Numbered from the stretch's first letter, positions 11,235-44,962 are shown. The stretch is 64,000 bases of DNA from Candidatus Reidiella endopervernicosa (GCF_013343005.1 NZ_CP054491.1:1780501-1844500); one strand, 5' to 3'. Numbers and translations are program-made. The notes: generated by a model not told the origin, from the letters alone.

Positions 11235-11465
11235 CTGTTCTCGAGTCTACTCTTTATTCAAAAAGAGAGTGTGACGGTCACGGCCCAGATGCTTTGAGCG
11301 GTAGAGCGCGTTGTCAGCGCACTTGATCAGTTCATCAGCGGTGGTGCAGCAGTCTGGGAAAATCGAGATGCCAATGCTGCAGCTTACGTGGAGTCTGTTG
11401 CGACCTATGCTGATCGGTTTTTTCAATGAAGCAGACATCTTCTCGGCAACGGCTGATGCGGCTTC

Positions 11466-36665: not shown

Positions 36666-39727
<3,062 letters not shown>

Positions 39728-39782
39728 TCTGATGGGGCTTTTAAAGGCCCGTTTTAGTATTGACAGTAAACATAAGTGAGTA

Positions 39783-41048
39783 ATGGGACGTCGCAATATG
39801 GGAATCTGCGGATTCGATTTTGGAACAAGCAATTCTACGCTTGGTGTTATTCGAGGTGGTTTTCCAGCGCTAGTTGATCTGGAAAATGGAAAGAAGCCAC
39901 TTAGGTCGGCAATGTTTTTTAATGAGCTTGATCACTCGATTAGCTTTGGTGAGATAGCTGTCGAGAATTATCTTAATCATGAAGAAGGGCGATTGCTGAC
40001 ATCTCTGAAAAGCGTCCTGGGAACATCGACGATGAACGCTTCCTCGGTGATTTTTAATCAGCATAAGTCATTTAAAGAGATTATTGGTTTTTATGTTGCC
40101 CATGTAAAATCGATTGGTGAATCACTTGTAGAAGCAGAGTTGTCCAATGTGGTTGTGGGTCGTCCAGTACATTTTAATGACCGAGATTCAAAAAAAGATA
40201 AAGCGGCTGAAAATGTACTAAGAGAAGTGTTTGTTGAGCAGGGATTTAAGGATATTGAGTTCCAGTTTGAGCCAATTGCTGCTGCGAAAACGTTTGGCCA
40301 TGAAAATACAGCGGATAAGCTGGCCATGATTGTCGATATTGGTGGCGGTACGTCCGATTTCAGTATAGTAAGAACAGGAGACGATGCCGATGGATCATCT
40401 GGCGACATTGTTGCTACTGCAGGAATTCATATAGGCGGTACAGATATAGATCAGGTGATCGCCTTACATAAGGTAATGTCTAAGCTTGGTATGGGTGGGA
40501 CGATGATATCGTCTTCAGGAAAAGAGTTGCCATTACCAAAGTCCTATTTTTATGACATGACAATGTGGCATTTGGTGAGCCAGCTCTACAGTCCAGGAAC
40601 AGTAAGGAAGATAAAGGATACTTTTCGATATGCCTGCAATATGGATGAGGTGACCAAGTTTTTACAGGTTATCGAAAAACAGGATGGGCATAGGGTGTTA
40701 GCAAGTTGTGAGAGCGCCAAAATTGATTTGGTTAGTCATGGTGAGGCACAGATAGATCTTGAATTTGTTGAGACTGGTTTTTCCATATGTTTGTCTCATT
40801 CGGATTTGAAGGGTTTGATAATCGAGAAAATTAATAGCGTGCTTAATGAAATAAAATCGATGCTCAAGTCTGTCGGGCTTAGTGGTGATGAAGTCGATGT
40901 TATTTATTACACGGGTGGAACAACTAAGATAGATTTTATTAAAAATAGAATCGGTGCCTTGTTTAGAAATGCTCGTACGGTTGAAGGTGATGCATTTGGA
41001 AGTGTAGGAACTGGTCTTACTTACGATGCCATGGAGAAATTTAAGTAG
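39783..41048 (+). CDS. Hsp70-like protein (YegD family)
   Basis: A 421-residue actin-fold ATPase with CGFDFGTSNSTLGVI (phosphate loop), VGRPVHF, IVDIGGGTSDFSI and YYTGGTTKIDF. These are the Hsp70 nucleotide-binding motifs, but there is no substrate-binding domain, as in YegD. Its role is unknown; YegD-type proteins are thought to be atypical chaperones. The sequence is AT-rich compared with ligA next to it, and it opens a four-gene island with a different base composition. The second ATG (39798, MGICGFD) is a reasonable start, as the family begins there. Confidence 0.88.
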   Translation: MGRRNMGICGFDFGTSNSTLGVIRGGFPALVDLENGKKPLRSAMFFNELDHSISFGEIAVENYLNHEEGRLLTSLKSVLGTSTMNASSVIFNQHKSFKEIIGFYVAHVKSIGESLVEAELSNVVVGRPVHFNDRDSKKDKAAENVLREVFVEQGFKDIEFQFEPIAAAKTFGHENTADKLAMIVDIGGGTSDFSIVRTGDDADGSSGDIVATAGIHIGGTDIDQVIALHKVMSKLGMGGTMISSSGKELPLPKSYFYDMTMWHLVSQLYSPGTVRKIKDTFRYACNMDEVTKFLQVIEKQDGHRVLASCESAKIDLVSHGEAQIDLEFVETGFSICLSHSDLKGLIIEKINSVLNEIKSMLKSVGLSGDEVDVIYYTGGTTKIDFIKNRIGALFRNARTVEGDAFGSVGTGLTYDAMEKFK

Positions 41049-41249
41049 ATACTAGTCTCAAGCTGAGAGGCGTGGTTTGGTTGTTCATGGAGTGATCAAG
41101 CAGGCTAGATTTCTATGATATAAGACGGGTTAATCGTTTGAAATAGATCGCAAGTCAGGTGTTTTGATCGGGTATATCAGTAAGGTGGATTGATTAGTGC
41201 TATTCCGGTTTGGTTAGGGTTGTCGTTTTATATGCAACTCTTTTCTTGT

Positions 41250-41255
41250 TATAAT
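41250..41255 (+). promoter_or_regulatory. Possible -10 box before the fusion enzyme gene
   Basis: TATAAT lies about 40-80 bp upstream of the coding start. No good -35 box is found at 17 bp spacing. It is the best promoter candidate in the 283-bp gap after the Hsp70-like gene. Confidence 0.35.
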
Positions 41256-41331
41256 ACAAAGCGTTATTCGTCGATACACGGATTTAGATATCAATACCAA
41301 AAAAACAATTATTACTTATGGGACATTCGAT

Positions 41332-42651
41332 ATGTTCCATCAGGGCCATTTGCGGCTGCTGAAACGTGCCAAGGCGTTAGGTGACTACCTTATAGTGGGT
41401 GTTACTGACGAAAACTATGACCGCTCACGTGGCAAATTGAATGTTATCGAAAGCACGCAGAAGCGGGTGCAGGCAATCGAGGCGTTGGATATTGTCGACA
41501 AGGTCATTATGGAGAAACACAAAAAGCAAAAAGCGGAAGATATGGTGAAATATGATGTTGATATTTTTGCCATTGGCGATGATTGGGAGGGTGTGTTTGA
41601 TTACCTGAATGAATACACCCACGTTGAATACCTTCCTCGTACAAAGGGTATATCCAGCACCTTGCTGAGACGAGACAACTTTGACCTTATAAAGTTGGGT
41701 GTTGTTGGTCTTGGTCGTGATACTAAAGCCTTTATAGATGAGGCTAAACATGTGCCAAATCTAAAGGTCAATCGGATCTATTCGCCTGACTTGCCAGCCT
41801 TAAAGAAATTTACCCAAAACAATGAAAGCATAAGGTATGGTCACGACAATTACGATGAGTTCTTAGATACAAGTATTGTTGCGGTCTATATTGATACTGC
41901 GCTAGAAAAACATTATCCGCTTATCAAAAAAGCATTAATAGCCAAAAAGCATGTGTTGTGCGAGAACCCTCTTGCACTGAATAAAAGTGAACTAATAGAG
42001 TTGCTCTCATTGGCGAAGAAAGAGAGGGTTCTACTGCTTTCTGCGCTCAAGACTGCGTTTTTGCCTGCCTTTAATCAGCTGTTGACTGAGTTGAATAAAG
42101 GAATAATTGGTGATGTTAAAGAGGTTAGAGCGACACGTACTTCACTTTATAAAGAGAAAGATTATCCCGACACCTTTATGGCTCAAGGTGCCACCAATAT
42201 TTTGTCTTCTTACCCCTCCTTGTTGGTCAATAAGATTTTAGGAGAAAGCAAAGATATAACTTTTTTTGATCAGGGTAATGAAGGTTATGATGTTTCCAAT
42301 CTTATTATCAGTAAACATAAAGGTGGTGCTGTCGGGATATCGAACGTAGCTACTGGAATTAAGTCGGAAGGTGACGCAGTGATCTCTGGGACAAAGGGTT
42401 ATGTTTATATCCCTGCGCCATGGTGGTTAACAAAGCAGTTTCATGTGCGCTTTGAAGATGAAAATAAAAGCCAAACATTCAAATATGAGTTCGATGGCTG
42501 CGGGCTGCGCTATATGATTGCAGAATTTGCTTCGTTGATCCAAAGAGGTAAGCGTAAATCTAGTATGTTGTCGCCTAAAGATATGATCGGAATTAATAGG
42601 GTTCTTTTGGAATATAACGAAAGAAAATTTAAGGAATTGGGGAAGGCTTGA
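41332..42651 (+). CDS. Cytidylyltransferase (TagD-like) fused to Gfo/Idh/MocA dehydrogenase
   Basis: Residues 1-130 are a TagD-type nucleotidyltransferase. The essential YGTFDMFHQGHL motif straddles the annotated ATG: in-frame codons upstream of 41332 read KKTIITYGTFD, but no canonical start codon precedes them, so the start is either unusual or lost to an indel near 41270-41290. Residues 135-439 are an oxidoreductase: LGVVGLGRDTKAFI is a Rossmann nucleotide site and HVLCENPLALNKSE matches the EKP-type motif of Gfo/Idh/MocA. The fusion would both oxidise or reduce a polyol or sugar and attach CMP or AMP to it. The downstream aminotransferase and LicD fit a decorating pathway. Confidence 0.8.
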   Translation: MFHQGHLRLLKRAKALGDYLIVGVTDENYDRSRGKLNVIESTQKRVQAIEALDIVDKVIMEKHKKQKAEDMVKYDVDIFAIGDDWEGVFDYLNEYTHVEYLPRTKGISSTLLRRDNFDLIKLGVVGLGRDTKAFIDEAKHVPNLKVNRIYSPDLPALKKFTQNNESIRYGHDNYDEFLDTSIVAVYIDTALEKHYPLIKKALIAKKHVLCENPLALNKSELIELLSLAKKERVLLLSALKTAFLPAFNQLLTELNKGIIGDVKEVRATRTSLYKEKDYPDTFMAQGATNILSSYPSLLVNKILGESKDITFFDQGNEGYDVSNLIISKHKGGAVGISNVATGIKSEGDAVISGTKGYVYIPAPWWLTKQFHVRFEDENKSQTFKYEFDGCGLRYMIAEFASLIQRGKRKSSMLSPKDMIGINRVLLEYNERKFKELGKA

Positions 42652-42653
42652 AT

Positions 42654-43733
42654 ATGATTTTTGAAGATTACGCTATTTTCACCCCAGGTCCCGTAAAGAT
42701 GTCTGAAGAGATACTGCAGGTGGGTGCTAAGCAGACGCCCTACTTTAGAAATAGTGAGTTTTCGGATGTGACCTTCGCCTGTGAAAACGGGCTGTTAGAT
42801 ATGGTCAATGCTCCAGAGGGTTCAAAGGTCATTTTCTTAACGGCGTCGGGTACTGCAGGTATGGAGTCTGCGGTGATGAATTTACTCCATAAAGACGATA
42901 ATGCTTTAGTGGTCAATGGTGGTGGATTTGGTGCACGATTTGTCGATATTTGTGCCACACATGAGATACCGCATACTAACTTCAAGGTTAACAATACTAA
43001 TCTAACCGACATTGAGCGTTTAGCGCCAGATGATAATTACACGGCGCTAGTCGTTAATGCACACGAAACATCTGTTGGCCACCTTTATGATTTGGATGCT
43101 ATGGGTGACTATGCGATTAAAAATGAGATGCTCTACATTGTAGATGCGATCTCTATGCTGGTGACCGATCCGCTCGATATGCAGCAGTCAAACATCGACG
43201 TTGTTATTGCAAGTTCTCAAAAAGGTCTGGCCTTGCCGCCTGGGCTTACCATGGTGGTGCTTTCCCCTAACGCACTAGAAAACTTACAAGATATCAATTC
43301 TCTGTACTTTAACTATAAAGATTATCTGGTTAATGGTGAAAGAGGGCAAACCCCCTATACACCGGCTGTTACGATAATGTTGCAACTGCAGGCGAGACTC
43401 AATCAAATAAGCAGGCGTGGTGGTGTGGAACAGAGTATCGCGAGTGCAAAAGAGGTCGCTAACTACTTTAGGGAAAGCATAAAGGCGTTACCGTTAAAAG
43501 AATATACACCCTATATGCCAAATGCGATGACCACCCTAACCCCAACCGATGGAAAATCGGCAATGGACATCGTTAATGCTTTAGAAGAAAACTACAAAGT
43601 TATGGTTTGTCCTAATGGTGGTGCGGAGCGTGATGTTGTCTTTAGGGTCTCCCATATGGGTGAAATGACAAAGGAATATACCGACATACTCATTGATGCC
43701 TTGCATGAATATTATGCTGTGGTTAGAGCATAG
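42654..43733 (+). CDS. Class V aminotransferase, 2-aminoethylphosphonate transaminase-like
   Basis: The N-terminal FTPGPVKMSEEILQ and the PLP lysine in IASSQKGLALPPGL are typical of the PhnW/AGXT class V group. ASGTAGMESAVMNLL is the cofactor phosphate loop. I chose ATG 42654 because GGGGAAGG lies 8 bp upstream; a TTG six bases earlier is less likely. The stop of the preceding gene overlaps the start region. 2-Aminoethylphosphonate or another amino compound is a plausible substrate but not shown. Length about 359 residues. Confidence 0.82.
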   Translation: MIFEDYAIFTPGPVKMSEEILQVGAKQTPYFRNSEFSDVTFACENGLLDMVNAPEGSKVIFLTASGTAGMESAVMNLLHKDDNALVVNGGGFGARFVDICATHEIPHTNFKVNNTNLTDIERLAPDDNYTALVVNAHETSVGHLYDLDAMGDYAIKNEMLYIVDAISMLVTDPLDMQQSNIDVVIASSQKGLALPPGLTMVVLSPNALENLQDINSLYFNYKDYLVNGERGQTPYTPAVTIMLQLQARLNQISRRGGVEQSIASAKEVANYFRESIKALPLKEYTPYMPNAMTTLTPTDGKSAMDIVNALEENYKVMVCPNGGAERDVVFRVSHMGEMTKEYTDILIDALHEYYAVVRA

Positions 43734-43745
43734 CGGTATAGCCTG

Positions 43746-44519
43746 ATGATAGACCCTCAGGTTTTACGTAAAGCCCAGTTGATTATGCTCGATATGCTAA
43801 TCGAGTTTGATGCAATATGTAAAAAGCACCAGCTTCAGTATTGGTTGGATTCTGGAACATTATTAGGCGCAGTTCGTCATCAGGGTTTTATACCGTGGGA
43901 TGATGATATAGATCTTTCGATGCCCATCGAGGATTATAACGAATTCTTGAAAATAGCTGAAAGTGAGCTTTCGAGTGATATATTTCTTCAAACATCCATA
44001 ACCGATAAAAACTTCAAATTTGATTACATTAAACTACGTTCTAATAAGGCTCGGATTGTAGAGTTTCACGAACAAGAGAGCGATGTAAATTACCACCAGG
44101 GCGTATTTGTCGATATTTTTCCAATGCTTGCCATAGAAAATACAGAGGAAAATAAGGACTATTACGACAGGACGCTTAAAGCGATAAGAGAACTCTCAGC
44201 TACAAGCCTGCACACACCAGATGGAAAGGATGATCCTCTAACCAGAGCTACCCTGGCTTCATCTTTAAAACAAATGCACCAGGGGTGGGAATACGATCAT
44301 TCAAAGGTTATCTATAGCGGTGAAATGCCGGATGTGGCTGCCTGGTTTGATATTGCAGAGGTTTTTCCTCTTTCTACGCTGGAGTTTGAAGGGCTATCTT
44401 TCTCTGCTCCAAAAAATGCAGATCACTATCTGGATGCGATCTACAGCTTCGACTATAGGCAGCTACCACCGGAAGATAAGCGAGTGATTCATGCGCATAG
44501 CATAGAGTTATCTCCTTGA
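43746..44519 (+). CDS. LicD-family phosphotransferase
   Basis: The LicD/fukutin signature is clear: YWLDSGTLLGAVRHQGFIPWDDDIDLSMP, with the DDDID metal site. LicD proteins transfer phosphocholine (or a related CDP-activated group) to a cell-surface glycan. It lies 12 bp after the aminotransferase, so one transcript is likely. Together with the CMP/AMP-transfer fusion enzyme it could form activation, amination and transfer steps of a surface modification. Length 257 residues. Confidence 0.9.
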   Translation: MIDPQVLRKAQLIMLDMLIEFDAICKKHQLQYWLDSGTLLGAVRHQGFIPWDDDIDLSMPIEDYNEFLKIAESELSSDIFLQTSITDKNFKFDYIKLRSNKARIVEFHEQESDVNYHQGVFVDIFPMLAIENTEENKDYYDRTLKAIRELSATSLHTPDGKDDPLTRATLASSLKQMHQGWEYDHSKVIYSGEMPDVAAWFDIAEVFPLSTLEFEGLSFSAPKNADHYLDAIYSFDYRQLPPEDKRVIHAHSIELSP

Positions 44520-44679: not shown

Positions 44680-44962
44680 CGCTGACCGCCATGGATAGCG
44701 AAGCGAAGGCGGTTAGTCCGCGATAGTCGACGCCGTCTGCCTATTCGTAGTTGAGAGCGCGAGCGGACGACGAAGAAGATGCAGCAGCGGCTTTATGTCG
44801 GCGTAGAGTCACTGAGGGAGTTGTGTAGAGCCGCGAAGAGGTGATTACGCAACGTACGCAGGACGGTCGGGGCGCCGTAGGCATAAACGGTCGCGTTAAG
44901 TTTTTGCTGTTTGCTTGGGCTTGGATGCCCAAAACAAACTTTCGCAAAATAGCGACTCCCGG
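44680..44962 (+). repeat. 282-bp dispersed element, copy 9
   Basis: It runs from CGCTGACCGCC to GCGACTCCCGG, between the LicD gene and the SPOR protein. It is the only complete copy here that is not within a coding region. No target duplication is seen. Confidence 0.92.

Follow-up and report, generated by a model that had tools for sequence, protein, structure and literature searches.

A three-gene cassette shared between phyla has a predicted role in CDP-linked, aminated surface modification

Three adjacent genes on the plus strand (41290-44519) of the window, the whole 64,000-nucleotide stretch of DNA analysed here, form one unit encoding a fusion of a TagD-like cytidylyltransferase with a Gfo/Idh-like domain, a class-V aminotransferase and LicD (Table 1). 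We propose, with a probability of roughly 0.6, that this unit is a self-contained, transferred operon whose products attach a small aminated group, through phosphate, to a surface molecule that is already there. Specifically, the TagD-like domain, by homology to glycerol-3-phosphate cytidylyltransferase, would move CMP from CTP onto a small phosphorylated compound; the aminotransferase would aminate a carbonyl carbon, either before activation (e.g. on dihydroxyacetone phosphate, giving serinol phosphate) or once the ketone or aldehyde is CDP-linked; and LicD would pass the phospho-amino group from CDP to the acceptor. In related fusions free of an aminotransferase, a lysine-bearing Gfo/Idh domain probably reduces the carbonyl, whereas in the cassette lineage the aminotransferase would take over the carbonyl and the Gfo/Idh domain would remain as a binding or structural part. 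The substrates, the order of the steps and the acceptor in this scheme are what we infer; the gene content and the strict linkage of the three genes support the original prediction that LicD transfers an aminated group from a CDP-linked donor. If the scheme is right, an aminated CDP-activated building block would join the known surface decorations.

Table 1. Features of the cassette, in window coordinates
Feature	Position	Strand	Evidence
Fusion gene: TagD-like cytidylyltransferase (residues ~1-127) and Gfo/Idh/MocA-like domain (~131-452)	41290..42651	+	Pfam, NCBIfam, homologues, start codon comparison, AlphaFold model
Class-V PLP aminotransferase, 359 aa, PLP-lysine motif SSQKGLA	42654..43733	+	Pfam Aminotran_5, PDB match 3f0h, alignment
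LicD-family phosphotransferase, 257 aa, PWDDDID motif	43746..44519	+	PF04991 E 1.3e-42, alignment
Promoter-like site TTTATA-17-TATAAT, extended TG -10, ~35 bp 5' of the fusion start	41227..41255	+	Consensus scan, 10/12 with TG

Pfam assigns four plus-strand ORFs of the window to HSP70, CTP_transf_like plus GFO_IDH_MocA (in one protein), Aminotran_5 and LicD; the four genes in a row that had been predicted therefore exist, yet the unit leaves out the Hsp70 gene. LicD scores 146.9 bits with PF04991 against a gathering cut-off of 22.6 and carries the DDDxD motif of the family, with PWDDDxD kept in 12 of 12 aligned LicD sequences. Its best NCBIfam match, the Mycoplasma Mf1-type diacylglycerol cholinephosphotransferase NF045866, is likewise a LicD-family CDP-dependent phosphotransferase, but the match is well below the cut-off (76.6 versus 225 bits). 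The TagD half reaches 121.9 bits with TIGR01518 against an equivalog cut-off of 165.4 and is filed as TagD-like only, although it keeps the cytidylyltransferase motifs HxGH and RTxGIS(S/T)T as HQGH and RTKGISST when aligned with 1coz and 2b7l. Similarly, the aminotransferase scores 162.7 bits with TIGR03301 (PhnW/AepZ) against an equivalog cut-off of 360.8, and its best PDB match, 3f0h (E 2.3e-159, 533 bits), is a member of the same family with unassigned function. The labels TagD-type and PhnW-like thus hold as family resemblances and not as equivalog assignments. The Gfo/Idh half fits the N-terminal profile PF01408 (58.3 versus 24 bits). The host genome is complete (3.45 Mb) and encodes one LicD, and a search for RNA families gave no match.

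The ATG at 41332 is not the beginning of the fusion gene; the conserved N-terminal sequence extends upstream to the predicted start codon, an ATC at 41290-41292. In eight loci (the window, L005, L007, L010, L011, L013, L014 and L022), the interval from the previous in-frame stop codon to the ATG within the GTFDMFH motif contains no ATG, GTG or TTG, and in six of them a TAA lies two codons before the conserved N-terminus. Homology of the fusion in these loci starts at ATC, or at ATT in L013; the aligned start codon is ATG in L012, the Campylobacterota fusions start with ATG, GTG or TTG, and L006 and L008 are ambiguous, their frames being open further upstream. Taken together, the fusion gene probably starts at AUC or AUU in the gammaproteobacterial and Lentisphaera copies. 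Both are non-canonical starts against which IF3 discriminates (PMC4611024), and their conservation would be a rare, possibly expression-limiting feature. Related gammaproteobacterial cassettes have a TGTATCAT/TGTTATAAT-type box at a similar distance upstream of the fusion; the promoter-like site of the window is not evidence alone, since the consensus scan finds a site total no higher than in shuffles.

The three genes occur in the same order and on the same strand in 25 loci, the window and 24 others, from Gammaproteobacteria, Lentisphaerota and Campylobacterota; these loci come from a genome-collection search with the fusion, which found 32 loci, together with Campylobacterales loci. The survey of gene order that had been suggested as a check therefore finds the linkage preserved, beyond chance. 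Clustering of the ORFs of the loci shows that fusion, aminotransferase and LicD share order and strand and that almost no other gene is common, with a metallophosphoesterase gene between aminotransferase and LicD in L012. The cassettes are instead surrounded by unrelated regulators, transporters and c-di-GMP enzymes, and no conserved neighbours were found except in close relatives (Sulfurovum L019 and L020). LicA, LicB and LicC are neither in the cassette nor recurrent beside it in these loci, and no cassette lies within a recognisable LPS gene cluster. The gammaproteobacterial cassettes do not adjoin glycan genes that would point to a particular acceptor, LPS or other.

DNA similarity to the window is confined to approximately 41223-44515, starting just before the fusion and stopping at LicD. 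At the protein level, identity of the fusion amounts to 87-93% among most Gammaproteobacteria (75% for L025), and to 82% with Lentisphaera marina and 69-82% with Campylobacterota. Of 369 genomes sampled from the window's class, two have a full-length close match, and 8 of 299 sampled Campylobacterales have the fusion, seven of them together with the aminotransferase. This patchy distribution, the 82% identity to a member of another phylum, the cassette-confined DNA match and the unrelated neighbours support horizontal movement of the cassette between phyla, in line with the transfer originally predicted from base composition. At the cassette itself, no convincing transposon-marking flanking repeats were found. 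Carriage by phages or plasmids was considered and rejected: the only fusions found, in IMG/VR, on short, unannotated 'phage' scaffolds of faecal origin and on a plasmid of Ruminococcus, are distant ones, and no close cassette was among them. With its occurrence in sulfur-oxidising and other marine lineages, the cassette would represent a portable surface-modification module.

The two domains of the fusion do reside in one protein, as had been noted; the oxidoreduction ascribed to it is doubtful, since neither the catalytic lysine nor the acidic position of the Gfo/Idh domain survives in any cassette. The AlphaFold model of the fusion (mean pLDDT 81.9) shows a Gfo part that folds like 3evn (Foldseek E 9e-23), 3e9m, KijD10 and dihydrodiol dehydrogenase. 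The EKP motif of 3e9m, whose lysine is the key catalytic residue of the family, is replaced by ENP, ESP or ETP in every cassette fusion. In a wider sample of 62 fusions, 23 bear the lysine (class A) and 39 lack it (class B). Class A has EKP in 23 of 23 and a GTGRIA-type NAD motif in nearly all; six columns separate the classes, two of them being the lysine and a Glu conserved throughout class A, and all six fall in the Gfo domain and none in the TagD domain. The domain is therefore probably not a working dehydrogenase in the cassettes. According to a first alternative, it is one: the TagD domain would make CDP-glycerol or a similar compound, the Gfo/Idh domain would oxidise it to a CDP-aldehyde or CDP-ketone, the aminotransferase would aminate this product and LicD would transfer it. 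Such an oxidise-then-aminate logic fits the combination of fusion and aminotransferase, the domain is strongly conserved and so does something, and the cassettes retain GLGRDT-type motifs and, in most cases, SYP motifs close to the usual places of NAD binding and Tyr. Weighed against the substituted lysine, the lost acidic residue and a GxGxxA motif that is itself degraded in Firmicutes aminotransferase-linked fusions, this alternative appears improbable.

Returning to the proposed takeover of the carbonyl by the aminotransferase, loss of the lysine is associated with the presence of an aminotransferase. An aminotransferase is found in the locus or genome of 35 of the 39 Lys-less fusions, whereas the loci of 21 of the 23 Lys-bearing fusions contain none (within ~7 kb), whole-genome absence of a class-V enzyme having been checked in only a few Lys-bearing cases. 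The exceptions are L126 and L128, Lys-bearing with a class I/II aminotransferase nearby, and L027, L060, L138 and L139, Lys-less with none detected. Additionally, the aminotransferase of the Lys-less L113 and L122 belongs to another Pfam class (class I/II), and Lys-less L114 has none in its locus and a class-V enzyme elsewhere in the genome, compared with no Lys-bearing genome in the same search. In a sample of 295 Lachnospirales genomes, three encode the cassette-type aminotransferase, all with Lys-less class-B fusions; one of these genomes (G690) also has a class-A fusion. L135, a class-A fusion from a campylobacterotal genome without aminotransferase, is sister to the cassettes (SH-aLRT 100). 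The tree shows four or more changes at the lysine position, and a tree-based pair test of the association is not significant because only about two losses coincide with an aminotransferase; the association is therefore supportive, not proof. The aminotransferase may replace the reductase of the aminotransferase-free relatives, and the two kinds of fusion would offer a direct in vitro comparison of whether the carbonyl is reduced or aminated. Two class-A fusions (L116 and L118) adjoin a glycerophosphodiesterase gene.

CDP-serinol is the leading, as yet unproven, product candidate, because Campylobacter jejuni converts dihydroxyacetone phosphate into (S)-serinol phosphate with a PLP aminotransferase, Cj1437, for a surface polysaccharide (PMC11800397). 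In that pathway Cj1438 joins serinol phosphate as an amide, and neither CDP activation nor a LicD step is described. The lack of class-specific columns in the TagD domain leans weakly towards activation of a common non-aminated substrate. Amination of a CDP-ketone is also plausible, since activation precedes reduction in CDP-6-glucitol synthesis of C. jejuni HS:5, where a cytidylyltransferase and an oxidoreductase make a CDP-polyol (PMC10918830); unlike the cassette, that pathway uses separate IspD-type and SDR proteins and no aminotransferase. The Haemophilus Bcs1-type CDP-ribitol synthase, a bifunctional enzyme cited in the same source, combines reductase and cytidylyltransferase in one protein (PMC10918830). 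Both halves of that synthase are active, whereas the catalytic residues of the cassette Gfo domain are lost. Its folds are unlike those of the TagD and Gfo/Idh fusion. In the open-access literature, we found no paper joining cytidylyltransferase, LicD and serinol, and none on such a fusion. We offer the most specific form of our proposal tentatively: an undescribed CDP-linked amino-polyol donor such as CDP-serinol would be made by a cassette of three genes that moves between phyla and initiates its first gene at AUC or AUU, a transaminase having replaced the fused reductase and the dead domain being kept as a scaffold.

The wider context of the aminotransferase, together with the glycerophosphodiesterase gene beside L116 and L118, points to a small phospho-amino group on CDP, possibly a three-carbon one. 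Five further Campylobacterales genomes have the aminotransferase family and lack the fusion; in all five of these loci a gene of ~237 aa follows closely 3' of the aminotransferase, and the three examined encode MobA-like nucleotidyltransferases. In L182, CDP-glycerol-type glycerophosphotransferases flank the aminotransferase on both sides, and in Ruminococcus albus a capsule cluster contains the aminotransferase, with LicD on one side of it and the fusion on the other. As a separate observation, the Campylobacterales cluster at L182:6778-12315, with the order glycerophosphotransferase, aminotransferase, nucleotidyltransferase, methyltransferase and glycerophosphotransferase, resembles a pathway for a teichoic-acid-like polymer, here in a Gram-negative bacterium. 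The Campylobacterales loci L179:6537-8963 and L180:6806-9235 encode proteins of ~810 aa in which a ~450-aa N-terminal part, by eye similar to an alpha/beta-hydrolase (GNSMGGYAA), precedes the class-V aminotransferase; a nucleotidyltransferase gene follows.

A second alternative holds that the aminotransferase makes phosphoethanolamine or 2-aminoethylphosphonate and that the cassette carries out Pnt-type tailoring, echoing the link to 2-aminoethylphosphonate first suggested. In Treponema denticola, the cytidylyltransferase PntC is fused to an aminotransferase (6pd1), and CDP-2-aminoethylphosphonate and LicD-like transferases co-occur in phosphonate clusters (PMC6697681). Pnt and the cassette share a nucleotidyltransferase, a class-V aminotransferase, a LicD-like transferase and a CDP-aminoalkyl donor; PhnW/AepZ is the best NCBIfam match of the aminotransferase, and 6pd1, a nucleotidyltransferase-aminotransferase, is among its PDB matches. 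The PhnW/AepZ cut-off, however, is missed by half, the cytidylyltransferase is TagD-type and not of the LicC type found in Pnt, and Pnt has no Gfo/Idh domain. Pnt also needs a PEP mutase, and none over the family cut-off was found in the complete genome of the window or in 12 other genomes or records with the gene set, which makes the phosphonate route unlikely; it was rejected on this ground. The cassette, as we propose it, would work like the Lic and Pnt pathways, with membership of neither shown by the tests run.

The Hsp70 gene (39783-41048) is a mere neighbour outside the cassette. It scores 239.6 bits with the YegD-type chaperone model NF008673 against a cut-off of 331 and is YegD-like only. 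A terminator-like hairpin (39735-39750) precedes it, and ~240 bp separate it from the cassette. As a partner it was considered and rejected: the Hsp70 match in L014 is a different Hsp70, and only in L008 does a homologue lie beside another cassette, on the opposite strand. That all four genes form one stress-linked functional unit is mostly refuted and very improbable, for although the genes are adjacent on one strand, equally low in G+C (41.0 and 41.8%) and matched by a YegD-like relative in L008, Hsp70 is missing beside the other cassettes, the L008 homologue is 38% identical compared with 90% for the fusion, and the cassette has a separate promoter-like site.

A base composition differing from both ligA and the SPOR gene had also been predicted. 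G+C is ~41-43% at 40-44 kb and 58-60% at 36-39 kb (ligA ~60%), so the difference from ligA stands; the low-G+C stretch extends beyond LicD, at ~45-49% as far as 48 kb, and includes the SPOR gene. The ligA gene itself (37448-39728) is split over several frames, with breaks near 38.8, 39.35 and 39.6 kb; the genome is listed as 100% complete, and an error of assembly or sequencing is a more probable cause than an essential gene having been lost.

Downstream of LicD lies a 281-bp structured repeat (44680-44960, plus strand; folding energy about -105 kcal/mol), with further copies at 11465, 12656, 17450 (minus strand), 21739, 22733, 24646 and 29997 and one cut at 1-189, giving nine copies in 64 kb. 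The copy at 44680 has no Rfam match. At least 41 scored genome copies, of 363 first-look candidates, are 97-99% identical, and on visual inspection two copies appear to break into reading frames of IS3-type transposases. The repeat appears to be a small mobile element that is very abundant and was active recently.
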